Shown: positions 32,973 through 57,130 of the stretch, piece by piece
How the letters are laid out: each line of letters starts with the position of its first letter
How positions within the stretch are numbered: the first letter of the stretch is position 1
NCBI RefSeq assembly: GCF_005862305.2
Contig: NZ_CP054021.1
Span: forward strand, 2,808,501-2,872,500
Length of the DNA stretch: 64,000 bases
Reading direction: 5' to 3'
Origin: Rhizobium indicum
GTDB lineage: Bacteria; Pseudomonadota; Alphaproteobacteria; Rhizobiales; Rhizobiaceae
Position numbers and translations under genes: made by a program
Notes under the pieces: model-generated
Told to the model about the DNA's origin: nothing
Databases searched by the model: none
Seen by the model: the letters and a program-made list of their open reading frames with translations, nothing else

Positions 32973-33010
32973 ACCGGTAGCGATTTTTGTCGCCGCCGGT
33001 TTTTTGTTTT
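32973..33010 (+). terminator. Terminator/attenuator between SAM-II aptamer and metA
   Basis: ACCGG...GCGA pairs with TCGC...CCGGT around a TTTTTG loop, followed by a T run broken only by one G (TTTTTTGTTTTT region). Its position after the aptamer and 17 bases before the metA ATG fits transcription attenuation. Confidence 0.75.
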
Positions 33011-35326: not shown

Positions 35327-35375
35327 TTGCCGATTGGTTCTATATAGGTTCTATTGTGCGCCCATGGATAGAACC
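35327..35375 (+). promoter_or_regulatory. Promoter and GntR operator repeats of the amino-sugar operon
   Basis: GGTTCTAT occurs at 35336-35343 and 35347-35354 as direct repeats, and inverted as ATAGAACC at 35368-35375 just inside the gene. A possible -35 TTGCCG (35327) and -10 TCTATT (35350) have a 17-bp spacer and overlap the repeats. The transcript would begin within a few bases of the ATG. Confidence 0.6.
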
Positions 35376-38316: not shown

Positions 38317-38333
38317 AATCAAGGATAAGCCGG

Positions 38334-39287: not shown

Positions 39288-39857
39288 TCAGTCCTTGGCG
39301 CGTTCGACGTAGGAATTGTCTTCCGTCGCGATGACGACGCGGGTGCCGGCATTGATGTGCGGCGGCACCATGGCGCGCACGCCGTTCGACAAAATCGCCG
39401 GCTTGTAGGAGGACGATGCCGTCTGTCCCTTGACGACCGGTTCCGTCTCCATGATTTCGAGCGTGACGTGGCGCGGCAGTTGGAGCGCCAGCGCAATACC
39501 TTCATGCATCGAGAGGATGCAGGACATGCCTTCCTGCAGATAAGCCTTGTCGTCACCCATCGTGGCGACATCGACGACGACCTGATCGTAGCTCGCCGGG
39601 TTCATGAAGTGGAAGCCTTCGCCGTCTTCATAGAGAAACTGGAAGGAGACGTCTTCGACGAAGGCGCGCTCGACCTGTTCGGTGGTGCGCCAGCGCTCGG
39701 AAACCTTCACGCCGTCGACGATGCGGCGCATGTCGACCTGGGTGACCGGCGTGCCTTTGCCCGGATGAAAGTTCTGGGCGGTGAGAACGACGTAGAGCTT
39801 GCCGTCGACATCGAGAACGTTGCCCTTGCGGACCGAAGAGGCGATGACCTTGACCAT
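39288..39857 (-). CDS. efp: Translation elongation factor P
   Basis: 189-residue factor that rescues ribosomes stalled on polyproline. The KOW-like N-domain has the modified-lysine loop [12 protein letters not shown], with Lys34 at the tip. The OB domains contain [17 protein letters not shown] and a C-terminal [16 protein letters not shown]. The ATG at 39857 has AAGGAAG upstream; the frame to 39977 is only an extension. It is divergent from epmA-epmB, whose products beta-lysylate Lys34. Confidence 0.97.
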
Positions 39858-40006
39858 AAGACTTCCTTGTAACTCGGCTTTCGGCGTCGTAAATGACTGT
39901 CGAGACGCCCCCGAAGACGCAAATGTTTTTCTTTGGGGCGCAACTAACCTAAAATCCGGGAAATAGCCACCCCCCATACCGGCCTCTCCGGCGAAGAAAG
40001 CTTGGA

Positions 40007-41068
40007 ATGAACTCTTCGGCGAAAGCGTCCCCCTGGTGGACCCCGTCCGTGCATGCAGACCGCCGTCCGCTCCTGATCGGACGCAATGCGATCCAGGCGG
40101 CGTTGCGCGGGTTTTTCGCGCGCGAGGATTTCATCGAGGTGGATACGGCGGTGCTGCAGGTCTCTCCCGGCAACGAGGCGCATCTGCATGCCTTCGCGAC
40201 GGAAGCGCTGACGACGGATGGGCAAAAGGCGCCGTTCTACCTTCATACCTCGCCGGAATTTGCCTGCAAGAAGCTGCTTGCGGCGGGCGAGGAGCGCATC
40301 TCGTGTTTTGCCCATGTCTATCGCAACCGCGAGCGCGGGCCGCTGCATCATCCTGAGTTCACCATGCTCGAATGGTATCGGGCCGGCGAAAGCTACGAGA
40401 GCCTGATGATGGATTGCGTGCGGATCCTGGCGCTGGCGACTGAGACGGTGAAGACCGGCAAGCTTGCCTATCGCGGTGCCGAGAGCGATCCCTTCGCCGG
40501 GCCGGAGCGGACCAGCGTTGCCGAAGCGTTCGAGCGTCATGCCGGCATCGATCTTCTCGCCTCGGTCGTAGCCGACGGTTCGACCGATCGCGACCATCTG
40601 GCCGCCGAGATGAAGCGCGTCGGCATGCGTGTTGCCGATGACGACGGTTGGGCCGATCTCTTCAGCCGGGTGCTGGTCGAAAAGATCGAGCCGCATCTCG
40701 GTTTCGGCCGCATCACCATTCTCGACGAATATCCGGTCTCGGAGGCAGCCCTTGCCCGTCCCTCGGCGCGCGACTCCAGGGTTGCCGAACGTTTCGAGCT
40801 CTATGCCTGCGGCGTCGAGCTTGCGAACGGCTTCGGTGAACTCACCAACGCTGCCGAACAGCGGCGACGGTTCGAGATCGAGATGGCCGAGAAGGCGCGG
40901 GTCTACGGCGAGACCTATCCGATTGACGAGGATTTCCTCGCCGCGCTGTCGCTGATGCCTGAGGCAAGCGGTATCGCGCTCGGCTTCGACCGGTTGGTGA
41001 TGCTGGCGACGGGAGCATCGCGCATCGACCAGGTGCTCTGGGCGCCGGTGGCGGAGTATGGAAGATGA
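40007..41068 (+). CDS. epmA: EF-P lysine lysyltransferase EpmA (PoxA/GenX)
   Basis: Class II lysyl-tRNA synthetase paralogue lacking the anticodon-binding domain, 353 residues. It activates beta-lysine and attaches it to Lys34 of EF-P. Class II motifs are motif 2 ([20 protein letters not shown] then MLEWYRAG) and motif 3 ([15 protein letters not shown]). [20 protein letters not shown] is the LysRS-type substrate site. Divergent from efp and overlapping epmB by four bases. Confidence 0.95.
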
Positions 41069-42117
41069 ATGTCGTCAAATCGATCAAGAGCGTCCACGAT
41101 CTTGTGAAGGCGGGGCTGGTCGTGCCTGCCGATCGTGCGAGGCTTGAGGAGGTTGCGGCGCGCTACGCGATTGCGTTGACGCCTGCGATCAGCAAGCTCA
41201 TCGATCGAGCCGATCCCGATGATCCGATCGCTCGGCAATTCGTGCCCGATGCGGCAGAACTCACGATCGCCCCGGAAGAACGCACCGATCCGATCGGCGA
41301 TCATGCCCACAGCCCCGTCGAAGGCATCGTTCACCGCTATCCCGATCGTGTCTTGCTCAAGGCCGTGCATGTCTGCCCGGTCTATTGCCGCTTCTGCTTC
41401 CGGCGCGAAATGGTCGGGCCGCAAGGCCTCGGCACGCTCGATGCGGCGGCGATGCAGGCCGCTTTCGATTACATCCGCGGTCATGAGGAGATCTGGGAGG
41501 TCATCCTCACCGGCGGCGATCCGCTGGTGCTTTCGCCGCGCCGGCTCCGCGAGATCATGGAGGCGCTTGCCGAGATCGCGCATGTGAAGATCGTGCGTTT
41601 CCATACGCGTGTTCCGGTCGTCGACCCCGAGAAGATCGATGCGGCGCTGATCGCCGCTCTGAAGGCGAGCGGCAAGACGGTCTATGTCGCGCTGCATGCC
41701 AACCACCCCCGGGAACTGACGCCGGAAGCGCGGGCGGCTTGCGGCCGCCTCGTCGATGCCGGCATCGCCATGGTCAGCCAGTCGGTGCTGCTCAAGGGTG
41801 TCAACGACGATCCCGACGTGCTGGCGAAGCTGATGAAGGCCTTCGTCGAAATCCGCGTCAAACCCTATTACCTGCATCATCCGGATCTGGCGCCTGGCAC
41901 CAGCCATTTCAGAGTGACGATCGAGGAGGGGCAGGAGATCGTCGCGGCGCTGCGCGGGCGGATTTCCGGTCTCTGCCAGCCGGCCTACATCCTCGATATC
42001 CCCGGCGGTCACGGCAAGGCCGTCGTCAGTGGGAGCGCGATCCGGGCAACAGGCGACGGATGTTATTCCGTCACCGATTATCGCGGCGGCGAGCATTCCT
42101 ATCCGCCGGCCGATTGA
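41065..42117 (+). CDS. epmB: EF-P beta-lysylation protein EpmB (lysine 2,3-aminomutase family)
   Basis: Radical SAM enzyme of 350 residues converting lysine to beta-lysine for EF-P modification. The radical SAM cysteines are C104, C108 and C111 (VCPVYCRFCF). ILTGGDPLVLSPRRLREIM and RFHTRVPVVDPEKI are aminomutase signatures. PYYLHHPDLAPGTSHFRV contains PLP/zinc-region residues. The ATGA overlap with epmA shows coupling. Together with efp this makes the complete EF-P modification pathway. Confidence 0.93.
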   Translation: MNVVKSIKSVHDLVKAGLVVPADRARLEEVAARYAIALTPAISKLIDRADPDDPIARQFVPDAAELTIAPEERTDPIGDHAHSPVEGIVHRYPDRVLLKAVHVCPVYCRFCFRREMVGPQGLGTLDAAAMQAAFDYIRGHEEIWEVILTGGDPLVLSPRRLREIMEALAEIAHVKIVRFHTRVPVVDPEKIDAALIAALKASGKTVYVALHANHPRELTPEARAACGRLVDAGIAMVSQSVLLKGVNDDPDVLAKLMKAFVEIRVKPYYLHHPDLAPGTSHFRVTIEEGQEIVAALRGRISGLCQPAYILDIPGGHGKAVVSGSAIRATGDGCYSVTDYRGGEHSYPPAD

Positions 42118-42380: not shown

Positions 42381-42632
42381 ATGAATAAGGCAATCCGCGA
42401 CCTCGTAGCCAAATTCGGCAAGCTTCCTGGGTCGATCGACCAGGTCGCCGACGACGCCGATCTTTATGCGGCGGGTTTGACGTCCTTTGCTTCTGTGCAG
42501 TTGATGCTTGGCCTCGAAGAGGCCTTCGACATCGAATTTCCCGACAATCTCCTGAACCGCAAATCCTTCGCGAGCATCTCGGCCATCGCCAGGACCGTCG
42601 ATCTGATCCGGGACAGCCGGAAGGTCGCCTGA
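42381..42632 (+). CDS. Stand-alone acyl/aminoacyl carrier protein
   Basis: 83-residue carrier protein with four-helix ACP layout. The phosphopantetheine serine is Ser35 in YAAGLTSFASVQLMLGLEEA; the usual DSL is LTS here, as in carrier proteins paired with aminoacyl:CP ligases. The C-terminal helix follows DNLLNRKSFASISAIA. GGAG lies seven bases before the ATG. It starts the operon, and its stop overlaps the dehydrogenase start by one base. It is probably loaded with an amino acid by the ligase encoded at 43819-44727. Confidence 0.92.
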   Translation: MNKAIRDLVAKFGKLPGSIDQVADDADLYAAGLTSFASVQLMLGLEEAFDIEFPDNLLNRKSFASISAIARTVDLIRDSRKVA

Positions 42633-43813
42633 TGAATTTCCCCGTCAAGATCATGCAGGACGGTCTTGTCACAAGGGTAGCCCGTGTCGCCGAAATCGCG
42701 GCGAAACACGCGGATACCGTTGATGCCGAGGCCCGCTTCCCCCGGGAAGCCGTCGATGCGATGAAGGCCGAAAGGCTGCTCGGCATCCAGGTGCCGCGCC
42801 ACTTCGGCGGCGAATCCGCCTCGATCACCGAGATCGCCGAATTGTGCTCGATGCTCGGCCAGGCCTGCGCTGCAAGCGCCATGGTCTTCGCCATGCACCA
42901 CATCAAGCTGTCGAGCCTCGTTGAACATGGCGCCGACAGCGAATGGCATCGCGGTTTCATGCGCCGCATCGCAGCCGAGCAGTTGCTGATCGCATCCGCC
43001 ACCACCGAAGGCGGTATCGGCGGAAATCTGCGCAACAGCATCTGCGCGGTCGAGGTCGATGGCGACACGTGCCGCCTCGAAAAGGATGCGACCGTCATTT
43101 CCTACGGCTCGCACGCCGACGCCATCCTTATCACCTCGCGCGCCCATGCGCAGGCGGCTTCCTCCGATCAGGTGCTGACGGCCTTCCTCAAGGACCAGTA
43201 CACGATCGAGAAAACGCATGTCTGGAATACCCTCGGCATGCGCGGCACCTGCTCCGATGGGTTCCTGTTCAAGGGCGAAGCGCCGGCTTGCCAGATCCTG
43301 CCGAAGCCTTTCGCTGAGATCGCGGCGCAATCCATGCTCGCCTCTTCGCATCTGCTTTGGAGCGGCGTCTGGTACGGCATCGCCGTCGATGCCGTTGTGC
43401 GCGCCCAGGCTTTCGTGCGCGCTGCCGCCCGCAAGGCGCCGGATGCCCAGCCGCCGGGCGCGCTGCGCCTCGCCGAGGTTTCGAACCTGCTGCAGATGGT
43501 GAAATCCAACGTGGTTGCCGGCCTCAAGGCCTATGAGGATGCCAAGGCCGATGCCGACAGGCTGTCTTCGATGGGATTTGCGGTGGCGATGAACAATGTC
43601 AAAATTGCCTCGTCCGAGACGATCCTGGAGATCGTCAACCATGCCATGCTGATCTGCGGCATCATGGGCTACAAGAACGGCACGCCCTTCAGCCTCGGAC
43701 GCCATCTGCGCGACGCGCATTCCGCACAGCTCATGATTTCGAATGACCGCATCCTCGGCAACACGTCGAGCATGCTTCTTGTCCATAAGCAGGACACTAG
43801 CCTACTGGGGTGA
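42632..43813 (+). CDS. Acyl-CoA dehydrogenase-like flavoprotein
   Basis: 393-residue FAD enzyme of the acyl-CoA dehydrogenase fold. It has an N-terminal helical domain ([40 protein letters not shown]), a middle domain with [20 protein letters not shown], and a C-terminal helical bundle. The substrate is presumably carried on the adjacent carrier protein rather than CoA, as with dehydrogenases that oxidise aminoacyl-S-carrier intermediates. The start overlaps the carrier-protein stop (TGATG). I could not assign the catalytic base with certainty. Confidence 0.85.
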
Positions 43814-43818
43814 CAGTC

Positions 43819-44727
43819 ATGGATATGCAGACCTCGTTTCTGGACCGGCTTTTCGAATCCGGCTTGTTGATCGATACCGGCATCGACGGGCTCTACGGCC
43901 GCAGCGGCCAGTTCGAAGACGTGATCGCTGCCTTCGAGCGCCTGATCGACACGTTCGGCGGCGCCGATGGTGCCGAAGCCATGCGTTTTCCGCCCGGCAT
44001 GAACCGCGCCTTCTTCGAAAAGAGCGGCTACATGAAGAGCTTTCCGCAGCTCGCCGGCACGGTGCACAGCTTCTGCGGCAGCGAGCTCGATCATGTCAGC
44101 CTGCTGCAATGCATGGAAGTCGGGGAAGACTGGACCAAGGGACAGGAGGCGACCGACATCGTGCTGACGCCGGCTGCCTGCTATCCGCTCTATCCGACGA
44201 TCGCCAAGCGCGGCAATCTGCCGGAGACGGGCGGCCTCTTCGACCTGCAATCCTATTGCTTCCGCCATGAGCCGTCGAAAGACCCTGCCCGACAGCAGCT
44301 GTTCCGCATGCGTGAATATGTCTGCATGGGCACAGAGCTGCACGTCACCGATTTCCGCCAGCGCTGGATGGATCGCGGCGTCGAGATGATGAAGACCGTC
44401 GGCCTCGAGGTGACGATCGACGTTGCCAATGATCCGTTCTTCGGCCGCGCCGGCAAGATGCTCGCCAACAATCAGCGCGACCAGAACCTGAAGTTCGAGC
44501 TGCTGATCCCGATCACCTCGGCTGCCAATCCGACCGCCTGCATGAGCTTCAACTACCATCAGGATGCCTTCGGCACGAAATGGGGTCTCAATCTCGAGGA
44601 CGGCAGTGTCGCGCACACCGCCTGCGTCGGCTTCGGACTGGAGCGCATCGCCCTTGCCCTCTTCCATCATCACGGACTCGATGTGAAGCACTGGCCGGCC
44701 AGCGTACGGAAAGCGCTGTGGGGCTGA
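43819..44727 (+). CDS. Amino acid:carrier-protein ligase (class II aaRS-like)
   Basis: 302-residue homologue of the catalytic core of atypical seryl-tRNA synthetases without a tRNA-binding arm. Known relatives from Bradyrhizobium and Agrobacterium activate glycine or alanine and acylate a carrier protein. Zinc ligands are seen at C121 ([10 protein letters not shown]), E166 ([11 protein letters not shown]) and C269 ([11 protein letters not shown]). They are offset by ten from the C131/E176/C279 I recall for the Bradyrhizobium enzyme. Motif 2 is [11 protein letters not shown]...MREY and motif 3 is [11 protein letters not shown]. The ATG at 43819 is used; a GTG three codons earlier overlaps the previous stop. 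It lies in the operon with its likely carrier partner. Confidence 0.93.
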
Positions 44728-44735
44728 GCAAATCG

Positions 44736-45698
44736 ATGACATCGGTCTTTTCGGGAATCGACCCGGAAACCTACCGGGCGCATGCGCTGCATACCGGCGA
44801 GCGCGCCTGGCCGGAAACCAATTGCTATGTCGATCTCTGGATCGAGGTTCTGGCGACATCAGGCGTTGCGCCCGAGGCGATGCTGGGTTTTACCCTGACG
44901 CAGGATTTCGAGGGCGACCAGTTCACCTTCTTCAAGGTGCCGCTTGAGGATCTGGAAGCGCTCTACGGCATTCGTGTGACCGAGCTTGCCATCTACGACC
45001 GTGTCGAACGCCATGTCGAGGTTCAGATCGCGCGGGCTCGTCTCTGCCTGATCGAAATGGATTCCTTCTACATGCCGGATACGCGCGGCACGGCCTACCG
45101 GCAGGAGCACGGCAAGACGACGGTTGCTATCAACCGCCTGGACGTTGCGGCCAAGCGCGTCGATTATTTCCACAATGCCGGTTATTTCCGTCTCGAAGGC
45201 GAGGATTTCGACGGTTTGTTCCAGCTGCATCTGACGGAAAACGACCCGCCATTCCTGCCCTACACGGAATTTGCGCGTTTCCCGGAAAGGCCGGCAGATG
45301 AGGCGCATCTGCGCGCGAGCGCACGGCGGCTTGCCGGTTTTCATTTTGCCCGGCGTCCCCGCGAAAACCCGATCCGCGCCTTTGCAAGCGTCTTTCCGCA
45401 ACAGGTCGAATCGCTGGCGGAACGGCCGTTCGGCTTCTTCCACAAATACGCCTTCAACACGCTTCGCCAGGTGGGCGCCAATTTCGAGCTGGCGGCCGAT
45501 TACCTCGCCTGGCTTTCCCCTGGTGAATTCGCCGCTGCCGCCGAGCATGCCAGGCGTATTTCGGAGGTGGCGAAATCGGTGCAGTTCCAGCTTGCCCGCG
45601 CCGTCACCCGCAGGAAGTTCGAGCCGTTGCAGGCAGCACTTGATCCGGCCGCCGATGCATGGGATTCCATGATGGCGTCGCTTGCGGGGCGAATCTGA
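44736..45698 (+). CDS. DUF1839 family protein
   Basis: 320-residue cytoplasmic protein of the DUF1839 family, found beside amino acid:carrier-protein ligases. Features include the N-terminal ETNCYVDLWIEVLATSGVAP, FTLTQDFEGDQFTFFKVPLE, MDSFYMPDTRGTAYRQEHGK and YFHNAGYFRLEGEDF. No catalytic motif is known to me. Its constant pairing with the ligase suggests it receives or transfers the aminoacyl group, which is inference. ATG at 44736 is eight bases after the ligase stop. Confidence 0.85.
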   Translation: MTSVFSGIDPETYRAHALHTGERAWPETNCYVDLWIEVLATSGVAPEAMLGFTLTQDFEGDQFTFFKVPLEDLEALYGIRVTELAIYDRVERHVEVQIARARLCLIEMDSFYMPDTRGTAYRQEHGKTTVAINRLDVAAKRVDYFHNAGYFRLEGEDFDGLFQLHLTENDPPFLPYTEFARFPERPADEAHLRASARRLAGFHFARRPRENPIRAFASVFPQQVESLAERPFGFFHKYAFNTLRQVGANFELAADYLAWLSPGEFAAAAEHARRISEVAKSVQFQLARAVTRRKFEPLQAALDPAADAWDSMMASLAGRI

Positions 45699-45714
45699 GG
45701 CCGGAGATCTGACC

Positions 45715-48195
45715 ATGCGGGGGCGTTTGGCAAGCATCGGTGCCGAGGAAAGTCTACTTTCCGAAGGCTGGAACCTGATCCTGACGGAGCCGGGCGCCTG
45801 CGCCGTGCCGCACGACATCCCGCTTTCCGCACAGTTCATTCCAGCACCCGTTCCAGGCACCGTCGCCGCAGCGCTTGAAAAAGCCGGGCTCTTCGACCGG
45901 GAAAATCCCGAGCCGCTGAACACGCGGGATGCCTGGTATCTCTGCCGGCTTTTCGATGCCGAACCCGGCGACGCGATCCTGCGTTTCGCAGGGCTGGCGA
46001 CGCTCTGCCACGTCTTCCTGAACGGCCAGGAAATCCTGTTTTCCGAGAGCATGTTCACGGCGCACGAGATTCCGGTGACGCTTTCGGGCGGCGACGAACT
46101 GGCGCTGTGCTTCCGGGCGCTTGGCCCCCGCCTGTCGGAGCCGGGCCCGCGCGCGCGCTGGCGGCCGCAGATGATCACGCCGGCGGGCTTGAAGAATTTC
46201 CGCACGACGCTGCTCGGCCACATGCCGGGCTGGTGCCCCGATATCCATGCCGTCGGGCCATGGCGGCCGATTTCGATGGTGCGGCGTCATCCCGTCTCGA
46301 TCGACAATGTCTCGATCCGCGCCGTATTGGAGGAGAGTGGTGTCGGCCGCCTCAGCGTTTCCCTGCATAGCAATGCCGAGGATCCGGCAATGCTGCTGCG
46401 CTGCGGCGGGATGGAGCAGCCCTTCGAGAAGGTCGGCGACAGTCATTACTCGGCTATCCTCAAGCTTTCCGACATCGAGGCCTGGTGGCCGCATACGCAT
46501 GGCGCTCCGCGTCTCTACGCGCTGACGCTGGTTTCCGACGGCGTGGAATATCCGCTCGGCAGGACCGGCTTTCGACGTATCGACATCGACCGTGGTGCCC
46601 ATGGCGATGACTTCGCGCTCCTCGTCAACGGCGAACGCATCTTCTGCCGCGGCGCGGTGTGGACGACGGCCGATATCGCGCGATTGCCGGGCGGGCGGGC
46701 GGACTATGAGCCGTTCCTGCGGCTTGCCGCTGCAGCTGGCATGAACATGATCCGCATCGGCGGCACCATGGCCTACGAAACGCCGGATTTCTTCGCGCTC
46801 TGCAACGAACTCGGTCTGCTCGTCTGGCAGGATTTCATGTTCGCCAATTTTGATTATCCGCGCAACGACAAGGCTTTTCTTGGCCACGTGCATGCGGAGG
46901 TCGAGGAATTCCTCCACGGCGTGCAGGCGTCGCCTTCGCTGGCCGTGCTCTGCGGCGGCAGCGAAGTCCACCAGCAGGCGGCAATGCTCGGCCTGCCGGC
47001 GGAATTCTGGAGCGGGCCGGTCACCGATGAAATCATCCCGGCGGTCGTCGCGCGCATGCGCCCCGACGTGCCCTATGTGCCGAACTCGCCATACGGCGGA
47101 GCGATGCCCTTTTCGCCCAATGCCGGTATCGCGCATTATTACGGCGTCGGTGCCTATATGCGGCCGATTGCCGATGCGCGCCGCGCCGATGTGCGTTTTG
47201 CCTCGGAAAGCCTCGCCTTCGCGCATGTGCCGCAGCAAAGGACGCTGCAGCGTCATCTCGATGTGCCCGCCGTCCACAGCCCGCTATGGAAGGCTCGCGT
47301 GCCCCGCGACCGCAGTGCATCGTGGGATTTCGAGGATGTTCGCGACTTCTACCTGCAGCTTCTCTACGGTTTCGATCCGGCTGAGCTGCGCCGCGAAGAT
47401 CCGGAACGCTATCTCGATCTCTCCCGCGCCGTTACCGGCGAGGTGATCGAGGAGACTTTTGCTGAATGGCGGCGCAAGGGCTCCGCCTGCAATGGCGCGC
47501 TCGTCTGGACGCTGCAGGATCTGCTGCCCGGCCCCGGCTGGGGAGTGATCGACTCCACCGGAGAGCCGAAGCCGGTCTGGTATGCGATGCGCCGTGCATT
47601 CCGGCCGGTGCAAGTGGTCTTCACCGACGAGGGAACGAACGGTCTCGACGTGCATGTCGTCAACGAGACGGATGAAGCACTCGATGTCGAGCTCGAGGTC
47701 GTCTGTCTGCGCGGTGGAAAACAGCAGGTCGTCAGCGGCAGCAGGGCCTTCAAGCTGGCGGCAAGAGATACGGAGCGCCTTGCCTGCACCGCGCTGTTCG
47801 GCGCCTTCTTCGACACGACCTATGCCTTCCGTTTCGGGCCGCCGGCGCATAATGCCAGTGTGGCGCGCCTGCGCTCGCTGGCGGACGGCGCCATTCTCGC
47901 CGAGAGCTTCCACTTCCCGTGCGGACGGGGGAAGGCGCTGCATGATGCAGGTATCGAAGCATCATTCACCAGAGACGGCGACGACTGGTTCGTTGACCTC
48001 AGGGCCGACCGGCTGGCGCAATCTGTGCATATCGACGTCGAAGGCTATCGGGCCGACGACGACTGGTTCCACCTTGCCCCCGGCGCGATGCGGCGCGTGA
48101 AGCTCCACGCGCTGTCCGGCGTGGAAAGCGACATTCCGCCTGCGGGCGAGATCAGAAGTCTAGGCAGTTCGCATCGCGTCGCAATCGAGGGCTGA
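45715..48195 (+). CDS. Glycoside hydrolase family 2 (beta-mannosidase-like) protein
   Basis: 826-residue GH2-type protein. The N-terminal sugar-binding domain has APVPGTVAAALEKAGLF and RDAWYLCRLF, as in beta-mannosidases, then an Ig-like domain and a TIM barrel (FALLVNGERIFCRGAVWTT). The acid/base is probably Glu417 (CGGSEVHQQA) and the nucleophile Glu498 (VRFASESLAF), so both catalytic carboxylates are kept. No signal peptide is seen. GGAG precedes the ATG at 45715, 17 bp after DUF1839. A cytoplasmic glycosidase in this operon may act in reverse as an assembling enzyme or trim intermediates. Confidence 0.88.
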   Translation: MRGRLASIGAEESLLSEGWNLILTEPGACAVPHDIPLSAQFIPAPVPGTVAAALEKAGLFDRENPEPLNTRDAWYLCRLFDAEPGDAILRFAGLATLCHVFLNGQEILFSESMFTAHEIPVTLSGGDELALCFRALGPRLSEPGPRARWRPQMITPAGLKNFRTTLLGHMPGWCPDIHAVGPWRPISMVRRHPVSIDNVSIRAVLEESGVGRLSVSLHSNAEDPAMLLRCGGMEQPFEKVGDSHYSAILKLSDIEAWWPHTHGAPRLYALTLVSDGVEYPLGRTGFRRIDIDRGAHGDDFALLVNGERIFCRGAVWTTADIARLPGGRADYEPFLRLAAAAGMNMIRIGGTMAYETPDFFALCNELGLLVWQDFMFANFDYPRNDKAFLGHVHAEVEEFLHGVQASPSLAVLCGGSEVHQQAAMLGLPAEFWSGPVTDEIIPAVVARMRPDVPYVPNSPYGGAMPFSPNAGIAHYYGVGAYMRPIADARRADVRFASESLAFAHVPQQRTLQRHLDVPAVHSPLWKARVPRDRSASWDFEDVRDFYLQLLYGFDPAELRREDPERYLDLSRAVTGEVIEETFAEWRRKGSACNGALVWTLQDLLPGPGWGVIDSTGEPKPVWYAMRRAFRPVQVVFTDEGTNGLDVHVVNETDEALDVELEVVCLRGGKQQVVSGSRAFKLAARDTERLACTALFGAFFDTTYAFRFGPPAHNASVARLRSLADGAILAESFHFPCGRGKALHDAGIEASFTRDGDDWFVDLRADRLAQSVHIDVEGYRADDDWFHLAPGAMRRVKLHALSGVESDIPPAGEIRSLGSSHRVAIEG

Positions 48196-48240
48196 CGCCG
48201 CTGCGAAGGATGATGCCGATCCATTGGGAAAGACCGTGAT

Positions 48241-49419
48241 TTGAGAACGATATACCGCTTTCTGCGCGCCCATGTTCTGCAGCGGCTGATCCCGCGGTCG
48301 CGTCTTGCTTTCAATCCGCGCAGGCCGGTGGAAATCGTCGGCTATCTCTCGATGGCGGTCGGCGTCGGCGAATCGGCAAGGCTCTGCGCCGGCGCATTGT
48401 CGGAGGCGGGGCGGGCGATTTCGCTCTCCGACGTCAGCACGCATCCTGACGAGAATTCCTTCGCCGGATGGATGCCGTCGCATCTCTCCACCGAACCCGC
48501 GGGAAGCCGGATCTGGCATCTCAATCCGCCGATGCTGCCGCGCGCCATCCTGAAGAAGGGCGTGGCGAATTTCACCCGCGCCTTCAACATCGGCTATTTC
48601 GCCTGGGAGCTCGAAGTCGTGCCGGCCGAGTGGCGCAATGCGATGCATTACATGAATGCCGTCTTCGTGCCGTCGGAATTCACCAGGCGGGCGATTGCGC
48701 CCCTCACTGCGGCACCGGTCATCGTCGTTCCGCATCCCGTCACCGAGAAGCCTGCGACGGAAGGCATGCGTCAGAGATTCGGCATCGAGGAAGACGCCTT
48801 TCTCGTCAGCTTCATCTTCAGCGCCGGCTCCTCGATCAACCGGAAGAATCCGCAAGCCGTCATCGAGGCCTTCTGGATATTTGCCGCCGAATGCCCCAGC
48901 GCCTTCCTGTTGATGAAGGCCAGCGGCGATATCAACAAGGATGAGGGCCTGCGCGAACTGGTCGCCTCGGTCGCGGGCAATACCCGGATCAGGATCGTTA
49001 CCGACAGGATGTCGGATTCCGATATCAATGGCCTCATCCGCTGCTCAGATGCCTATCTTTCACTGCATCGTTCCGAGGGTTTCGGGCTGACGGTGGCCGA
49101 GGCGATCATGCAGCGTACACCCGTCATTTCCACGGCCTGGTCGGGCACGGTGGATTTCTGCGATCCCGACAATAGCTGGCTGGTTGCCTCTCCCCTCATT
49201 CCGGTGGTCGATACCCATCCCGAATTTGCCGGGCTCGAAGGCGCGGTCTGGGCCGATCCCTCACCCGAGGCGGCGGCCGCGCACCTGCAAGATATCTTCC
49301 GCACACCCGAGCGTGCACGAGAGAAGGCCGAGAAGGCGCGGGAGTTCCTGCTACGTTACCTCGCGGAAAACAGCTACGAGAAGGCGCTTCAGACGCTGGC
49401 GGCGATGCAGGCCAGCTAA
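48241..49419 (+). CDS. GT4 family glycosyltransferase
   Basis: 392-residue GT-B fold enzyme. The N-terminal half contains VEIVGYLSMAVGVGESARLC and FNIGYFAWELEVVPAEWRN. The C-terminal nucleotide-sugar half has SFIFSAGSSINRKNPQAVIEAF and DAYLSLHRSEGFGLTVAEAI, the EGFG-type E-x7-E site of GT4. The start is TTG at 48241 with a weak ribosome-binding site. It sits between the GH2 and flippase genes, so it likely builds the same exported glycan. Confidence 0.9.
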   Translation: MRTIYRFLRAHVLQRLIPRSRLAFNPRRPVEIVGYLSMAVGVGESARLCAGALSEAGRAISLSDVSTHPDENSFAGWMPSHLSTEPAGSRIWHLNPPMLPRAILKKGVANFTRAFNIGYFAWELEVVPAEWRNAMHYMNAVFVPSEFTRRAIAPLTAAPVIVVPHPVTEKPATEGMRQRFGIEEDAFLVSFIFSAGSSINRKNPQAVIEAFWIFAAECPSAFLLMKASGDINKDEGLRELVASVAGNTRIRIVTDRMSDSDINGLIRCSDAYLSLHRSEGFGLTVAEAIMQRTPVISTAWSGTVDFCDPDNSWLVASPLIPVVDTHPEFAGLEGAVWADPSPEAAAAHLQDIFRTPERAREKAEKAREFLLRYLAENSYEKALQTLAAMQAS

Positions 49420-49501
49420 GGTGCCACTCCGCTTTATTTTAACATTTTCGCATTAGAGATGGCGGGTATGCGGCGGTAGGCCGATCCTGACGGATGGACA
49501 G

Positions 49502-52500
49502 ATGTCGAAGGGTATTATCGCAAACTCGGTGATGAACGCGGCGGCAGGCATGCTGCTGCTTCTGACGGGCTTTGTGTCATCGATCATAACCGCGCGGCTG
49601 CTCGGGCCGGAAGCCAACGGCATCGTCGCCTTCTCGCTCTGGCTGGTGGTGACCGGCGCCTCGATCGCCGAGCTCGGCTCCAGCATCACGCTGCTGAAGA
49701 CGTTGCCGCAACTTTCGGCGGAAGGCTTCGACGCGCGCCGCCGGCGGGGTTTTGCCGCCATCCTCGTCAGCTTCATGATGTTCTCGACCGTCGTGCTGCT
49801 GGCGCTCTACGCGCTGTTCTTCCTCACCTCCGAAAAGATGCACTGGGCCGACACCGCGCCATCCGTCGCTCTGGTCACGGGCGTGCTGTTCTTTATCCAG
49901 GCGATCGGATCCTTCGTCAAATTCTACCTGATCGGCGAAAAGAAGCTCGGCGCTTTCTTTAAGCTGACGGTCGCCGTCTCGATCGTGCAGCTTGCCGGCG
50001 TTGCCGTCGGCGCCGTTTTCTACGGCGTCGAGGGCGTTCTCGTCGGTTATGCGCTCGGCCAGCTCGTGCTGTTTTTCGCCACGCTGCCGATCCTTCTGGC
50101 GCGGCGCGACTGGTGCGGGGTCTCGCTGAAATATCTCGCCTCCTCTTCCGTCATCCTGTCGATCCAGTTCATCATCGATTCCATTTTCCTCAACCGCCTC
50201 GAGCTTCTCTTCCTGCAGCAGTTCTGGTCGGTGGAGATGGTCGGCTATTATGCCGTCGGCCTGTCGATCGCCAATATCGCGCTGCAACTGCCGATCCAGA
50301 TGACCGGCAGCCTGCTGCCCTATTATTCCGAGCGGCGGCACAGCAGCGACGATTCGACATTGCCGGTCGAGGTCTTTACCGCCGTTACCCGCAGCATGGC
50401 CTATATCGTGCTGCCGATGAGCCTGGGGCTCGCCGCGATCTCTAGCGAACTGGTGCTCGTGGTGTTCGGCGAAGCATTCCGCCGCAGCGGGACGGTAGTG
50501 GCGCTGCTTGCGCTTGTTGCTCCCGCCTATACCTTCATGCAGATCCTCAGCCTCTATTTGCTGTCGATGGACAGGGCCCGCTCCCGCCTGAACATCAGTG
50601 TGATAGGTGGCCTACTGATGGTAGCGGGTTGTTTACTGATCGTACCTAGGCTTGCCGCCGAGGGTGCCGCACTCGTGCGCATCCTCGTATTCGTTGCGAT
50701 GTCGGTGATGATGATCAGACAGACAGGATTCGGATCCCAGCTTTCGGGTCTCTACGCAAGCCTGACGAAGGTGACGCTCGCCTCCGTGCTGTGTGCTTGC
50801 GGAGCGACTTCCGTGCTGGAATTCGTCCAGGGTCCGGCCGGATTGGTCGGCGCCATCATCGCCGGCGCATTCGCCTATTTTGCAGCACTCCGGGTGCTGC
50901 GCGCCGTGCCGGGCGAGGATGTCGAAGTCATGCGCTCCATTCTCGAGAAGATGCCGTCCCTGCTGCGGCGACCGGTTGGCTACGCGATCAATTTCATCGC
51001 GCCGCGGCTTCCCGGCGATCCCGATCGTGCGAAGGTCGCGCCCGGTGAATTCTCGCTCGAACCGGCCGAGGGGGCGGGACGCAGCGCCGCCCTGCCTGTG
51101 GTCTTCGACGGCACGATCGGGCTGTTCATGCCTGAAAATCCTCTCGCCAAGAAACGTTCGGCCGCGGTGCTCTTCGTCAGTCCCTGGGGTTTCGAGGAGA
51201 TGTGCAGCCGTAAATTCTTCCGCGTCGCGGCCGAGCATTTCTCGGATATCGGCGTGCCGAGCCTGCGCTTCGACTATCGCGGCACCGGCGATGCGCTCGA
51301 TTTCGGCGCACTGCCGGCGAGGCTGGAAACCTGGGAAGATTCGATCCGTGCGGCCGCCGATAAGCTCAAGTCGCTGAGCGGCTGCGACCGCATCATCCTC
51401 ATCGCCCAGGGCCTCGGTGCGACGCTTGCCCACCGCGTCGGCTCCTCGATCGAAGGCGTCGACAGCCTGGTCATGCTGGCGCCGGTGCTGAGCGGCCGGG
51501 CCTATCTGCGCGAACTCAACATGTGGTCCAAGATCATCGATGCCGATCTTGGCCTCGGCAAGGAGCATGTCCAGATCGCCAAGGTGCAGATCGCCGGGCT
51601 CGTCATGCCCGAAGAGATCGCCGCCGAGCTCGGCAAGCTCAACATCACCTCGCCGCAGGGGCTCGCAACCTCCCGCTACCTGATCCTCGAACGTCCTGCC
51701 AAGGCCGAGGATACCGGCTTTGCCGATGCGCTGAAGGCGCTTGGCGCCGATGTCGAGCAGAAGGCTTTCGAAGGCTATGACGAGCTCGCCACCAACCCGC
51801 TGTTTGCCAAGACGCCGATGGCTGTCGTGGCGCTGCTGACGACGTGGCTGGAGGCAACGACGACAGAGACATCCGCCGCCCATTCGCCGACGGCGATCGA
51901 CAACCCGCCGCTTGCCGGCGATGGTTTTGCCGAAGCTCCGGTGCGTTTCGGAAGCCATAATCATCTGGTCGGCGTCGTCAGCCGGCCGCTCGGCGAGATC
52001 AAGGGCAATGCCGTGCTCTTCTTGTCGACGGCCTATGACCGGCATGCCGGCTGGGGACGGACGACGGTTGATATGGCGCGCGAGCTCGCCCGCCAAGGCG
52101 TCGTTTCGCTGCGCTTCGATTCCGCCAATGTCGGCGACAGCCCGCCCCGGCCGGATGCGCCGGAACAGGTGCTTTATTCGGATACGCAGACCGGAGATGC
52201 AGTCGCCGCGCTCGATCTGCTCGAAGGTGTCGTCGCCGGCCCCGTCATGGTCGCCGGCCGATGCAGCGGCGGCTATGTCGCCTTCCGCGCCGGCGTCGCC
52301 GATGAGCGCTTGAAGGCTGTCGTGTCGATCAATCCCTTCGTCTATTACTGGGATCCTGACATGCCGGTGCGCAGGGAACATGTCGTCTCCGTTCCCCGCA
52401 GCCTCGATGATTACAGCCAGCGCCTGGCGCGGCTCGACACGCTGAAGCGGCTGCTGCGCGGCCAGGTGGACGTCGTTGCGGCGCTGCAGAATATCGTCAT

Positions 52501-52813
52501 CGCCGCCGGCCGCCGGTTGTCGCCATGGATTGCGCCGCTGCTCGAGCTGCTTCCCGACCGGCGCCATATCGCCCGCGAGGTCCGGCACTCCTTCGCGCTG
52601 TTCGGCAAGCGCAAGGTGCCGCTGACGCTGATCTACAGCGAGGGCGATGTCGGGCTCGACCATGTCTATTTCCACTTCGGGCCGCGCGGCGCCAGGCTTT
52701 CCCGCTATCCGAACGTGCGGCTGCTGATGCTGCCGGATGCCGACCACAATCTGACGCCGCCGCAATCGCGCAAATTCGTGCTCGACGAGATCATTCGTCT
52801 CGCCAGAGCATGA
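49502..52813 (+). CDS. Fusion of Wzx-type flippase and two alpha/beta-hydrolase domains
   Basis: 1103-residue protein with three parts. Residues 1 to about 480 form a polysaccharide flippase (MATE/Wzx type, 12-14 helices: LLLLTGFVSSIITARLLGPE, FIIDSIFLNRLELLFLQQFW). About 540-780 is an alpha/beta-hydrolase in which the nucleophile elbow reads AQGLGA, with Gly637 where Ser is expected. About 810-1103 is a second, related hydrolase whose elbow reads AGRCSGG, placing Cys921 as nucleophile, with His1082 in DADHNLTP. The two hydrolases share SLRFDYRGTGD / SLRFDSANVGD, so they arose by duplication. Cytosolic hydrolases attached to a flippase suggest acyl transfer coupled to export. Confidence 0.88.
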   Translation: MSKGIIANSVMNAAAGMLLLLTGFVSSIITARLLGPEANGIVAFSLWLVVTGASIAELGSSITLLKTLPQLSAEGFDARRRRGFAAILVSFMMFSTVVLLALYALFFLTSEKMHWADTAPSVALVTGVLFFIQAIGSFVKFYLIGEKKLGAFFKLTVAVSIVQLAGVAVGAVFYGVEGVLVGYALGQLVLFFATLPILLARRDWCGVSLKYLASSSVILSIQFIIDSIFLNRLELLFLQQFWSVEMVGYYAVGLSIANIALQLPIQMTGSLLPYYSERRHSSDDSTLPVEVFTAVTRSMAYIVLPMSLGLAAISSELVLVVFGEAFRRSGTVVALLALVAPAYTFMQILSLYLLSMDRARSRLNISVIGGLLMVAGCLLIVPRLAAEGAALVRILVFVAMSVMMIRQTGFGSQLSGLYASLTKVTLASVLCACGATSVLEFVQGPAGLVGAIIAGAFAYFAALRVLRAVPGEDVEVMRSILEKMPSLLRRPVGYAINFIAPRLPGDPDRAKVAPGEFSLEPAEGAGRSAALPVVFDGTIGLFMPENPLAKKRSAAVLFVSPWGFEEMCSRKFFRVAAEHFSDIGVPSLRFDYRGTGDALDFGALPARLETWEDSIRAAADKLKSLSGCDRIILIAQGLGATLAHRVGSSIEGVDSLVMLAPVLSGRAYLRELNMWSKIIDADLGLGKEHVQIAKVQIAGLVMPEEIAAELGKLNITSPQGLATSRYLILERPAKAEDTGFADALKALGADVEQKAFEGYDELATNPLFAKTPMAVVALLTTWLEATTTETSAAHSPTAIDNPPLAGDGFAEAPVRFGSHNHLVGVVSRPLGEIKGNAVLFLSTAYDRHAGWGRTTVDMARELARQGVVSLRFDSANVGDSPPRPDAPEQVLYSDTQTGDAVAALDLLEGVVAGPVMVAGRCSGGYVAFRAGVADERLKAVVSINPFVYYWDPDMPVRREHVVSVPRSLDDYSQRLARLDTLKRLLRGQVDVVAALQNIVIAAGRRLSPWIAPLLELLPDRRHIAREVRHSFALFGKRKVPLTLIYSEGDVGLDHVYFHFGPRGARLSRYPNVRLLMLPDADHNLTPPQSRKFVLDEIIRLARA

Positions 52814-52904
52814 TTGCTCGCCATAGCATGATTGGGGATTTTACAGCGCCGGGGGTCTTTTCACACGCGCAAGGCTGTAGCGCTTATGCGGTAGGAAGAC
52901 AGGA

Positions 52905-54083
52905 TCAGATGCTTTCTGCGGCGCTGACATCAAGCGATCTGTAGAGATCAATATAATGTCCGGCGACGATATCCCAGGAATAGCCGCGGGCGGCGTCGAG
53001 AAGCTCGGCGCGAACGGCGTCCGGTTGGCGCGAAAGGTGTTCATATGCCGTTTCGATCGCCGTGGCGGCGCTCTCAGGATTGGTGAAATCGGCAAGCATG
53101 AGAACAGGATGCCGGGCGGCAAGCGTAACAAAGGCATCGTTGGCATTCAGCACCGGCAGGAGGCCGGCGCTCATCGCCTCCAGCGCCACCAGGCCGAAAC
53201 CTTCATATTCCGAGGCGGAGGCGAGAATCGAGGCTTCTGCGATGATGCGCCGGATGGTGTCGTTCTCGGGCGACACATGCAGGGTGACGCGGCCGGACAG
53301 ATGACGGCTTTCGATTGCGCCTTCGACATCCGCCCGGTTCAGGTCGGATTCGGCGCCGACGATGTCGAGATGCCATTCCGGATCGCGGGTCTTCAACATG
53401 GCCATCGCATCGAGCAGGTGGTCCAGCCGTTTGTTCACCGAAAATCGGCCGATCGTGACGATGCGGCGCTTTGCCCGGCGTGAAGCGGTGTCGGCAAACT
53501 TGCCGATATCGGCGCCGTTTTCGATCAGCAGGCTGTCGGGCACGATTTCTGAAAACTGCTTGAGGTCGGAGGCGCTGCAGCAGACGACGCGGCGATAGGC
53601 CATCGCCGAAGCGCGGGTCAGCGTCCGGAACCAGATCTTCTTGATCGCCGCGTATTTCCGCGTGTGGAAGAAGCCGCCATGGGTGGTGACGATCATCGGT
53701 TTTCCGTGCAGCAGCCGGCCCCAGGCGAGCGCGTCAAAGAAGAAGTCGATGGCATGGACATGCACCAGATCGGCATCGGCAAGATGGCGGAAAACCTGCG
53801 GTGCCAGCGGATAGCGGCTGGTGCCGAACCAGGGAATGCGCACCACCTCGATGCCGTCGATATCTTCGCGAAGCGGCAGCTTGTCCTCAGGCGCGGTGAA
53901 GAGCGAATCCAGCGTGACGACGCGCACGCGGTAACCACGGCGCACGGTCTGGCGGGCGAGATTGGCGACCACGTCTTCCAGGCCGCCGCGATTGGGCAGG
54001 AATTGGCGCACGACATGGACGATCAGCGGAGCCGTTTCCAACTGCGGCATCGCGTGCACCCTATCTGCCTCGACGATCGACAT
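52905..54083 (-). CDS. GT4 family glycosyltransferase
   Basis: 392-residue GT-B enzyme. The N-terminal domain has VVRQFLPNRGGLEDVVANLA and VHVHAIDFFFDALAWGRLLH, then MIVTTHGGFFHT. The C-terminal domain has RRIVTIGRFSVNKRLDHLLD and ASASEYEGFGLVALEAMSAG, the GT4 donor-binding E-x7-E. The ATG at 54083 has AGGTG upstream. It converges on the flippase fusion gene across a 91-bp gap and probably joins the same glycan pathway, though it is transcribed separately. Confidence 0.92.
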   Translation of the reverse strand: MSIVEADRVHAMPQLETAPLIVHVVRQFLPNRGGLEDVVANLARQTVRRGYRVRVVTLDSLFTAPEDKLPLREDIDGIEVVRIPWFGTSRYPLAPQVFRHLADADLVHVHAIDFFFDALAWGRLLHGKPMIVTTHGGFFHTRKYAAIKKIWFRTLTRASAMAYRRVVCCSASDLKQFSEIVPDSLLIENGADIGKFADTASRRAKRRIVTIGRFSVNKRLDHLLDAMAMLKTRDPEWHLDIVGAESDLNRADVEGAIESRHLSGRVTLHVSPENDTIRRIIAEASILASASEYEGFGLVALEAMSAGLLPVLNANDAFVTLAARHPVLMLADFTNPESAATAIETAYEHLSRQPDAVRAELLDAARGYSWDIVAGHYIDLYRSLDVSAAESI

Positions 54084-54638: not shown

Positions 54639-55541
54639 TCACGCAGTCGGATTGGCGGTCGCTTCGGCGACGATCCAGTCGCGAAAAGCGGCAAGCGGTG
54701 CATAATCGGCGCGCTCGGGCGGAAAGGCGAGATAATAGCGCTCGCGACTTTCCATTTCACGGTCGACAGCGGCGACGAGATCGCCGCGCCCGATCTCCTC
54801 CTGCATCAGGAATGTCGGCAGCAGGGCGACGCCGAGGCCGGCGATTGCCGCCTGCGCGGCGGTGGCGAACTGGTCGAAGAGCATGCCGTGCACGCTTTCG
54901 AAGGAAACGCCATTGCCGGCGAACCATTGCTCCCAGGCGTCAGGACGCGTCGTCAGATGCAGAAGCGGAACGGCGAGCAGATCCTCCGGTCCTGAGATCG
55001 CATATTGCTTCAGAAAATCCGGACTGCAGGCCGGCACCGTGCGCTCCGACATCAGAAGCGCGAGTTCGGCGCCCGGCCAGTGCGGATGGCCGAAATGGAT
55101 GGCGGCGTCGATCGAATCGAGGCGGAAATCGAAGGGCGAAAGCCGGGTCACCAGATTGATGGTCACGCCGGCATTGGCGGCGAGAAAGCGCCCCAGGCGC
55201 GGCGCCAGCCAGCGTGTGCCGAAGGTCGGCAGGATGGCGAGATTGAGCGTGCCGCCATGCGGATTGGCGCGCAGGTTCAGCGAGGCGCTCGATATCCGTC
55301 GCAGCGCCTCGCGAATCTCGCGGGCATATCCGTCGCCGGCGAGCGTCAGCCGCATGGTCTGGCGTTCGCGCCGGAAGAGCTCGACGCCAAGTTGCTCCTC
55401 CAGCGCGCTGACCTGCCGGCTGACGGCGCTCTGCGTCAGATCGAGTTCGCGCGCCGCTGCCGTCACGCTGCCGGTGCGGGCAACCGCCTCGAAGGCGGCG
55501 AGATGCGAAATCGATGGCAGGAAACGTCTAGACGTCAGCAT
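54639..55541 (-). CDS. LysR family regulator, probable activator of lysine/pipecolate catabolism
   Basis: 300-residue LysR protein (GcvA-like). HTH: HLAAFEAVARTGSVTAAARE then LDLTQSAVSRQVSALEEQLG. The effector domain has LNLAILPTFGTRWLAPRLGR and VPACSPDFL. Start MLTSRRFLPS at 55541 (ATG two codons upstream also possible). It diverges from hglS across about 108 bp that contain a 17-bp palindrome with a LysR-type T-N11-A core, so it likely controls the catabolic genes. Confidence 0.9.
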   Translation of the reverse strand: MLTSRRFLPSISHLAAFEAVARTGSVTAAARELDLTQSAVSRQVSALEEQLGVELFRRERQTMRLTLAGDGYAREIREALRRISSASLNLRANPHGGTLNLAILPTFGTRWLAPRLGRFLAANAGVTINLVTRLSPFDFRLDSIDAAIHFGHPHWPGAELALLMSERTVPACSPDFLKQYAISGPEDLLAVPLLHLTTRPDAWEQWFAGNGVSFESVHGMLFDQFATAAQAAIAGLGVALLPTFLMQEEIGRGDLVAAVDREMESRERYYLAFPPERADYAPLAAFRDWIVAEATANPTA

Positions 55542-55562
55542 GATCATTCCGTTTCAGAATGG

Positions 55563-55579
55563 GCTATTTCCGAAATAGC
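55563..55579. promoter_or_regulatory. Candidate LysR operator between lysR and hglS
   Basis: GCTATTTCCGAAATAGC is a perfect 17-bp palindrome containing TATTTCCGAAATA (T-N11-A), 22 bases upstream of the LysR ATG and 71 bases upstream of hglS. Confidence 0.6.
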
Positions 55580-55649
55580 GATATTTGCGGCTTTGTCGCG
55601 CGTGTAAAGAGGTTCATCCTGCAAAAACGGAATGAGCCGGAGTTTCCCA

Positions 55650-57062
55650 ATGCCGCAAGCCTTCGTTTCCCCAGACCGCATCCGATCGCTGTTTACCGAG
55701 GCGATGTCGCAGATGTACCGGGCGGAGGTGCCGCAATACGGCACGCTGATCGAACTGGTGGCGGATGTGAATGCAGGCTGCCTCGAGAATGATCCCGATC
55801 TGCGCGATCGTCTGGCCGGCGCCGGCGAGCTGGAGCGCATCGATGTCGAGCGTCACGGCGCCATCCGGCTCGGTACGGCAGACGAGCTTTTCACCATCCG
55901 CAGGCTGTTTGCGGTCATGGGCATGCAGCCGGTCGGCTATTACGATCTTTCGGTCGCCGGCGTGCCGGTTCATTCCACCAGCTTCCGGCCGATCGACGAG
56001 GCAGCGCTCAACGTCAACCCGTTCCGTGTCTTCACCTCGCTGCTGCGACTGGAACTGATCGAGGACGAGGGGCTGCGCCGTGAGGCCGAAGCCATTCTGG
56101 CGAAACGGCGGATCTACACGCCGCGCGCCGTCGCGCTGATCGAGCGCCACGAGCAGAACGGTGGCCTGAGCGAGGCGGAAGCGACGGAATTCGTCGCCGA
56201 GGCGCTGGAAACCTTCCGCTGGCATGGCGAAGCGACGGTCAGCGCCGAAACCTACAAGCGCCTGCACGATGCCCATCGGCTGATCGCCGACGTCGTCAGC
56301 TTCAAGGGACCGCACATCAACCATCTGACGCCGCGCACGCTCGATATCGACGCGGTCCAGGCCCGCATGCCGGAACGCGGCATCACGCCGAAGGCTGTCA
56401 TCGAAGGGCCGCCGCGCCGTCATTGCGATATCCTGCTGCGACAGACGAGTTTTAAGGCGCTGGAGGAAACGATCGCCTTTTCGAATGGTGATGGTGCCGT
56501 TCAAGGTACGCATACCGCCCGCTTCGGCGAGATCGAACAGCGCGGCGTAGCGCTGACGGCGAAGGGCCGGGCGCTCTACGACCAGCTGCTCGCCTCGGTT
56601 CGCGGCGAGGTGCAGGTGGGCGCCGGCGGCGCCAAGGCCGGCGCCTACGACGATGAACTCGCCGCGCGTTTTAAGGCACTCCCGGATAGCTGGGATGAGC
56701 TGCGCAGGGCGGATCTGGCCTTCTTCCGCTATTCCGCGACGCCTGCGGGCATTGCCGCCGCGGCCGGCAGCAGGCTGTCCGGCGATCCGGGGGCGCTGAT
56801 CGCCAAGGGTTACCTCGCCTTCACTCCGATCGTCTACGAAGACTTCCTGCCCGTCAGCGCGGCCGGCATCTTCCAGTCGAACCTCGGCACCGACCAGCAG
56901 CAGAACTACGCGACCCGCTCGAACCGTGACGCCTTTGAGGCGGCACTGGGTGCTACCGTTCAGGACGAGCTGGTACTTTACGCCGAACGCCAGGCGGCAT
57001 CGCTGGATTCGGCACTGGCCGCGCTTGGCCTTGCGGACCTGCCGCTGAAGACCGTTGCGTGA
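55650..57062 (+). CDS. hglS: 2-oxoadipate dioxygenase/decarboxylase (DUF1338, HglS/YdcJ)
   Basis: Fe(II)-dependent enzyme converting 2-oxoadipate to D-2-hydroxyglutarate in lysine catabolism, 470 residues. The metal ligands match those I recall from the Pseudomonas putida enzyme: His69 with Arg73 (VERHGAIRLGT), His225 (GPHINHLTPRTLD) and Glu294 (RFGEIEQRG). The ATG at 55650 has GGAG seven bases upstream; an ATG at 55632 is a weaker alternative. It is followed by amaA and amaB, which produce its precursor from pipecolate/lysine. Regulated by the divergent LysR gene by layout. Confidence 0.93.
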   Translation: MPQAFVSPDRIRSLFTEAMSQMYRAEVPQYGTLIELVADVNAGCLENDPDLRDRLAGAGELERIDVERHGAIRLGTADELFTIRRLFAVMGMQPVGYYDLSVAGVPVHSTSFRPIDEAALNVNPFRVFTSLLRLELIEDEGLRREAEAILAKRRIYTPRAVALIERHEQNGGLSEAEATEFVAEALETFRWHGEATVSAETYKRLHDAHRLIADVVSFKGPHINHLTPRTLDIDAVQARMPERGITPKAVIEGPPRRHCDILLRQTSFKALEETIAFSNGDGAVQGTHTARFGEIEQRGVALTAKGRALYDQLLASVRGEVQVGAGGAKAGAYDDELAARFKALPDSWDELRRADLAFFRYSATPAGIAAAAGSRLSGDPGALIAKGYLAFTPIVYEDFLPVSAAGIFQSNLGTDQQQNYATRSNRDAFEAALGATVQDELVLYAERQAASLDSALAALGLADLPLKTVA

Positions 57063-57130
57063 AATGGCAGGTTCAACACTTTCTTTTATGCATTAGTGTA
57101 CCCGCGATTTCGCTCTGATCGGACTGAGCC

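Follow-up and report, generated by a model that had tools for sequence, protein, structure and literature searches.

We analyzed a 64,000-nucleotide window of Rhizobium indicum (contig NZ_CP054021.1; G000:C1:2808501-2872500 in our data set, from a 7.53-Mb genome) that contains a compact gene cluster whose products probably load an amino acid onto a carrier protein, modify it and pass it to a sugar. On the plus strand, the gene for an 83-amino acid carrier protein (42381..42632; PF00550, 34 bits; NF005480, 122 bits against a cut-off of 72) is followed by those for a 393-amino acid flavoprotein with an acyl-CoA dehydrogenase (ACAD) fold (42632..43813; PF02771/PF00441), an amino acid:[carrier protein] ligase of 303 to 305 amino acids (43810..44727; NF005479, 521 bits against a cut-off of 357), a 320-amino acid DUF1839 protein predicted to be an acyltransferase of the CcbD/CtaG fold (44736..45698; PF08893, 454 bits, and fold matches) and an 826-amino acid beta-mannosidase-like glycosidase of family GH2 (45715..48195; PF22666 and mannosidase Ig domains). 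Further along the same strand are a lineage-specific accessory glycosyltransferase, GT4a (48241..49419; PF00534), and a MOP-type flippase fused to two alpha/beta-hydrolase domains (49502..52813; PF13440, TIGR03101, TIGR03100), while a second accessory glycosyltransferase, GT4b, is convergent on the minus strand (52905..54083; PF00534/PF13439). All eight open reading frames reported in a preliminary description of this DNA are where it placed them and match the families that it named. The close packing that it noted from the carrier gene to the DUF1839 gene is also confirmed and extends to the GH2 gene, with a 1-base overlap between the carrier and flavoprotein genes and gaps of 8 bases between ligase and DUF1839 and 16 bases between DUF1839 and GH2. 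The ligase gene overlaps the flavoprotein gene by 4 bases if it starts at GTG 43810, or lies 5 bases after it if it starts at ATG 43819, which is the likelier start because many aligned homologues begin with MDMQ. Wider gaps separate GH2 from GT4a (45 bases) and GT4a from the flippase gene (82 bases), and no terminator-like site was found in either. The DUF1839 protein of the window is 97% identical to the copy of Rhizobium johnstonii 3841 and 94% identical to that of an R. ruizarguesonis cluster.

The first five genes form a conserved ordered block. Among 40 stretches of at most 20 kb taken around ligase or DUF1839 matches, 28 bear DUF1839 and 27 of these have the order carrier-flavoprotein-ligase-DUF1839-GH2 on one strand; the sole exception, L052, holds a second DUF1839 copy, and its genome carries the operon as well. 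The same order was observed in 78 of 80 loci, the remaining two being truncated by the locus ends. These loci are the best 80 of at least 584, with titles naming Rhizobium, Agrobacterium, Shinella, Ferirhizobium or Rhizobiales/Rhizobiaceae, and they overlap with the 40 stretches (L023 = L077, L024 = L143), so that the residue counts given below contain a few repeats. Pairwise identities among the five proteins tested, the hydrolase included, are correlated (r of 0.74 to 0.92, 20 to 43 loci per pair), as for jointly inherited genes. The rhizobial setting assumed in the preliminary description proved too narrow, as plasmid records and best named matches extend the system to Azospirillum and relatives of Burkholderia. 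DUF1839 occurs in 59 plasmid records (Rhizobium 18, Azospirillum 11, Mycetohabitans 9, Caballeronia 7, Cupriavidus 4, Burkholderia 4, Shinella 3, Methylobacterium 2 and Phyllobacterium 1), seven of which were inspected for neighbourhood. The five genes and the hydrolase gene make one co-directional block of six in A. lipoferum, A. brasilense and Mycetohabitans, in Phyllobacterium the hydrolase gene is convergent, and in Caballeronia and one R. leguminosarum plasmid the five-gene part alone was seen; one further record has no annotation there. In the R. leguminosarum plasmid locus (L156), the five-gene block is flanked by insertion-sequence transposases, a hint of transfer between replicons, and is followed by a weak GT4a match (50 bits).

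We then consider presence across whole genomes, using a single draw of 101 genomes from the family and a sample of 299 genomes from the phylum that shares some genomes with it. Genomes whose ligase match fell below the cut-off were excluded (2 of 21 in the family sample, 16 of 37 in the phylum sample), as were matches of at most 170 bits for GH2, 57 bits for the hydrolase and 136 bits for the flippase. In the family sample, the ligase, DUF1839, the GH2 orthologue and the hydrolase are found in exactly the same 19 of 101 genomes. The classes are well separated: GH2 orthologues score at least 738 bits and other GH2 matches at most 170, while the hydrolase scores at least 217 bits (311 + 134 in one genome where it is split) and other matches at most 22. 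The corresponding chance figure, 1/C(101,19) or about 6e-21, is too small, as the genomes are related. Adjacency cannot account for this shared presence, since the hydrolase gene is on a separate contig in three of the genomes (G011, G017 and G061) and about 240 kb distant in another (G057). In the phylum sample, DUF1839 and the hydrolase occur in the same 12 genomes, with hydrolase scores of 129 bits or more against 57 for the next match, whereas the ligase is above its cut-off in 21, among them all 12; the hydrolase thus tracks DUF1839, not the ligase. In genus g73, one of the eight genomes listed has ligase, DUF1839 and hydrolase, and among the five ligase-bearing genomes of genus g103 two carry all three and three the ligase alone, so that coupled gain or loss has taken place more than once. 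Co-occurrence of the carrier, flavoprotein, GT4a and GT4b was followed through gene neighbourhoods.

These results bear on the possibility that the window simply holds two unrelated modules side by side, an amino acid-carrier operon and a glycan operon. The genes GT4a, GT4b and the flippase do differ between lineages, as this explanation would have it, but in the family sample the presence of GH2 and the hydrolase coincides fully with that of ligase and DUF1839, even where the hydrolase gene lies on a different contig or some 240 kb off. Two unrelated modules are therefore largely refuted for GH2 and the hydrolase, the explanation stands only for GT4a, GT4b and the flippase, and as an account of the whole locus we judge it very improbable. 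Likewise, chance juxtaposition of ligase, DUF1839, GH2 and hydrolase is rejected by their identical presence sets and is retained for the two glycosyltransferases and the flippase. The carrier and ligase genes are thus linked to glycan-related genes, contrary to the prospect raised in the preliminary description that the two groups might never co-occur; of the eight families for whose co-occurrence it proposed a genome search, ligase, DUF1839, GH2 and hydrolase go together, while GT4a, GT4b and the flippase are variable. Flippase orthologues, with scores of 411 bits or more, are present in 10 of the 101 family genomes, all within the 19. The 80 loci comprise 36 with a flippase-hydrolase fusion, 19 with a separate hydrolase and 25 with neither within the flanks; GT4a is found in 25, all with the fused flippase, and a GT4b match in 42. 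Given these counts, and blocks that lack both, glycosyltransferases and flippase are not parts of the conserved system, as had first been supposed. As an observation the preliminary description holds, and its core idea is strengthened, but the unit comprises six proteins, with export confined to certain lineages.

The ligase is, by its sequence, a clear member of the Bll0957-type amino acid:[carrier protein] ligases (E of 1.3e-99 and 1.9e-94 against solved chains of aa:CP ligase 1 and Bll0957). It consists of a core catalytic domain lacking a tRNA-binding domain, with 303 to 305 amino acids and a match to the core only, compared with 518 positions for the matching seryl-tRNA synthetase models. 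C122 (123/124), C270 (124/124; numbering from 43816) and the Glu of an FR-x-RE motif (25/25) are conserved at the zinc-binding positions known from Bll0957. Glycine and alanine are precedented substrates among such ligases. In the carrier, the phosphopantetheine-bearing Ser35 and E46 are each present in 112 of 112 aligned proteins (at least 40 bits), and helix II contains the acidic residues E46/E47. Flavoprotein and ligase also occur together in nine loci that we label Bradyrhizobium-like by inference (L053-L061), with no match to DUF1839, GH2 or the hydrolase within the stretches fetched; in these loci the ligase possibly serves another, simpler purpose. Six of the nine have a weak carrier match (27-34 bits), and weak Wzc-like matches (33-59 bits) lie nearby in L056-L058, the one in L057 being a Wzz/GNVR protein by Pfam.

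The fold of the flavoprotein is certain, whereas its chemistry is uncertain. H89, E126, R134, H240, W243, W247, N371 and R373 are invariant, while Glu is found in none of 122 sequences at positions 236, 240, 243-245 and 367-371, and in four at position 372. These are taken to lie around the C-terminal and IVD-like catalytic Glu sites of ACADs, a placement made by alignment and motif and not certain. A profile search of solved structures returned DnmZ and a nitrososynthase among the first seven matches, mixed with dehydrogenases; both are aminosugar N-oxygenases. Fold comparison is undecisive, with dehydrogenases, monooxygenases and ColB1, a dehydrogenase of carrier-tethered cysteine, tying. 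ColB1 is a precedent for the suggestion in the preliminary description that the tethered amino acid may lose 2 Da by oxidation, which is nonetheless not favoured given that no Glu occupies the tabulated base positions. Moreover, alpha,beta-desaturation would be impossible if glycine is the substrate, since glycine has no beta carbon. We tentatively prefer oxygenation over alpha,beta-dehydrogenation.

In DUF1839, C30 is conserved in 115 of 116 aligned proteins and D109, H125, H146, R244 and R288 in all 116; in the window, the Cys30 and His125 codons lie at 44823-44825 and 45108-45110. Cys30 is the candidate nucleophile, and both H125 and H146 are candidates for the catalytic His. The predicted fold matches CcbD, CtaG and BtrH-like acyltransferases over most of the chain, and together with the conserved residues it favours the transferase role proposed in the preliminary description. 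With CcbD/LmbD (and also CtaG, AziU2-U3 and BtrH), DUF1839 shares a predicted whole-length fold and, putatively, a nucleophilic Cys; CcbD/LmbD draw on a carrier-bound amino acid donor, as we propose for DUF1839, and the CcbD acceptor is an amino sugar. The two differ in that identity is only 12-15%, with no significant sequence match, and that the DUF1839 system uses a class II aminoacyl-tRNA synthetase-like ligase for activation and has conserved glycosidase and hydrolase partners. DUF1839 might instead be a thioesterase or peptidase-like hydrolase, with the pathway freeing an oxidized amino acid that is used only later. The papain-like fold is common to many hydrolases, and a 2023 classification (PMC10318531) places DUF1839 in that superfamily, proposing a C(T/S)H motif and suggesting glycan processing at the cell wall. 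We regard such a hydrolase as improbable.

GH2 aligns with the beta-mannosidases 5n6u (E of 1.1e-49) and 2vjx, and both its acid/base and nucleophile Glu, assigned from the catalytic positions of 2vjx, are present in 114 of 114 aligned sequences. In the fusion protein, the flippase spans residues ~1-490, hydrolase A ~546-736 and hydrolase B ~819-1093. The preliminary description had also offered a hydrolase domain as the transferase, which suits only one of the two: in the 17 rows shown of a 77-sequence alignment, neither Ser nor Cys occupies the nucleophile elbow of hydrolase A, whereas in hydrolase B a G-x-C-S-G motif, an Asp and a His, each at 90% or more of the 77 sequences, form a Cys-Asp-His set. 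The Cys nucleophile of hydrolase B would suit the transfer of an acyl group from a thioester. Related domains are found in exosortase A-associated hydrolases 1 and 2, but the fusion scores below the curated cut-offs of TIGR03100 (70.7 against 168.45) and TIGR03101 (65.9 against 202.75).

We hold with moderate confidence that the conserved unit is a six-protein, carrier protein-based aminoacyl transfer pathway that hands the aminoacyl group to a sugar, with export in certain lineages. We infer its catalytic steps and its product as follows. By analogy with close relatives, the ligase would activate a small amino acid, glycine or alanine, and load it onto the phosphopantetheine of the carrier. 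The flavoprotein may then oxidize this tethered group, and oxygenation, perhaps at the nitrogen, is more likely here than classical alpha,beta-dehydrogenation. DUF1839 would take the acyl group onto Cys30 and hand it to the amine, or a hydroxyl, of a sugar; the probable acceptor is an amino sugar within a cytoplasmic glycan precursor. GH2 and the Cys-type hydrolase may act on the same conjugate, to trim it, to proofread it or to carry out another acyl transfer. For the R. leguminosarum group, the hydrolase-flippase fusion and the presence of GT4 genes suggest that the product is probably exported there in a surface glycan. The fully specified version, a dedicated route in which the ACAD-fold enzyme oxygenates glycine or alanine on the carrier and a CcbD-like DUF1839 joins it to a surface-glycan amino sugar, is put forward only tentatively.

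Several observations weigh against this pathway. At the sequence level, Pfam BtrH_N matched only 1 of 10 DUF1839 proteins (E of 0.15; 12.8 bits against 29.7), and that one is a copy without its Cys; hhalign of DUF1839 against BtrH_N gave an E of 0.031 and a probability of 1.6%, which establishes no link, and a profile search of solved structures with DUF1839 recovered none of CcbD, CtaG and BtrH. As the BtrH_N match failed, we class DUF1839 as working like CcbD/CtaG/BtrH, not as a member of that family. Confidence in the DUF1839 model is low at residues 52-67, and the ligase-adjacent DUF1839 of L051 (9434-10417) lacks the Cys and nearby motifs. The window GH2 has no strongly hydrophobic, signal-like N-terminus and is probably cytoplasmic, an odd location for a glycosidase in polymer assembly. 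Finally, the six-gene blocks of the two Azospirillum plasmids and one Mycetohabitans plasmid show no flippase or GT4 match. The genome of L051 has a second DUF1839 copy that keeps its Cys (L052:88-1299), near a hydrolase among Wzc-type genes.

The lack of a signal-like N-terminus in GH2 and the blocks without flippase or GT4 match also favour a small, diffusible aminoacyl-sugar metabolite as the product, the adjacent glycan genes being incidental to each lineage. In this reading DUF1839 would use a free amino sugar or glycoside, as in lincosamide biosynthesis, and GH2 and the hydrolase would release or recycle the metabolite. The absence of a flippase orthologue from 9 of the 19 positive Rhizobiaceae genomes would agree with such a product. 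On the other hand, 36 of the 80 loci carry the hydrolase as a fusion with a flippase, and an acyltransferase-family gene lies just upstream of the Mycetohabitans block, with one ArnT-like and one LTA synthase-family gene within ~9 kb. When 35 DUF1839 loci were scanned with a few polysaccharide queries, Wza/Wzc-type matches confirmed by Pfam were found in two, L050 and L052, which are two of five Burkholderiaceae-type loci (with L051, L152 and L153); the best named matches of the L050 DUF1839 are from Paraburkholderia, and L052 has the same family label. A polysaccharide deacetylase follows GH2 in two of the 35 (L049, by Pfam; L034, 287 bits to the L049 protein). On balance, we consider a diffusible metabolite rather unlikely.

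The transfer of a carrier-bound amino acid to a surface sugar is not new in outline, having been in print since 2010. Judging from gene order, Atu2574 is probably a DUF1839 gene. For the neighbourhood of a class II, seryl-tRNA synthetase-like ligase exemplified by Atu2574, Iyer and colleagues (2010, Biol Direct 5:48, note in proof; PMC2922099) predicted that a cell-surface sugar receives an amino acid on its amino group, with the Atu2574-type open reading frame as amide ligase and a redox enzyme acting probably by monooxygenation of the aminoacyl group. Their neighbourhood shares with ours the carrier, the redox enzyme, the uncharacterized reading frame, the glycosidase and liposaccharide genes; the fold and active site of that reading frame, the twin hydrolase and the co-occurrence test are supplied by the present analysis. 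No experimental test of the aminoacyl-sugar prediction was found among the literature matches listed, which covered few subscription papers. In D-alanylation of teichoic acids by DltABCD, a small carrier protein likewise brings an amino acid to a surface polymer, with a different ligase class and transferase, and the window carrier scores 28 bits against DltC (cut-off 68). If correct in its fully specified version, our pathway would give Gram-negative bacteria a carrier protein-based equivalent of teichoic acid alanylation. It would extend CcbD-type chemistry beyond antibiotic clusters to a route that is widespread among symbiotic and soil bacteria and possibly related to the cell surface. It would also give a testable job to a puzzling family of tRNA synthetase look-alikes, a question that the six-gene unit and a named transferase class make directly testable.

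The window contains other genes near the operon. Directly upstream of the carrier gene (39288-42117) are EF-P, EpmA and EpmB-like radical SAM genes, the EpmB-like protein fitting TIGR03822 (586 bits) and falling below the EpmB equivalog cut-off (251 against 369). Their membership in the system was rejected: they lie upstream in 58 of the 80 loci and are absent in the Agrobacterium and Shinella rows, and EpmA, used as a control gene, is above its cut-off in 29 of the 101 family genomes and common to 15 of the 19 operon genomes. Further upstream are a SAM_alpha riboswitch (32901-32978, 81 bits) and, at 35334-39062, genes for a GntR/UTRA regulator, two SIS-domain proteins and a NagA-like amidohydrolase that resemble amino-sugar catabolism. 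Downstream, at 54639-58414, are genes for a LysR regulator, an HglS 2-oxoadipate dioxygenase/decarboxylase and an FAD-dependent oxidoreductase.

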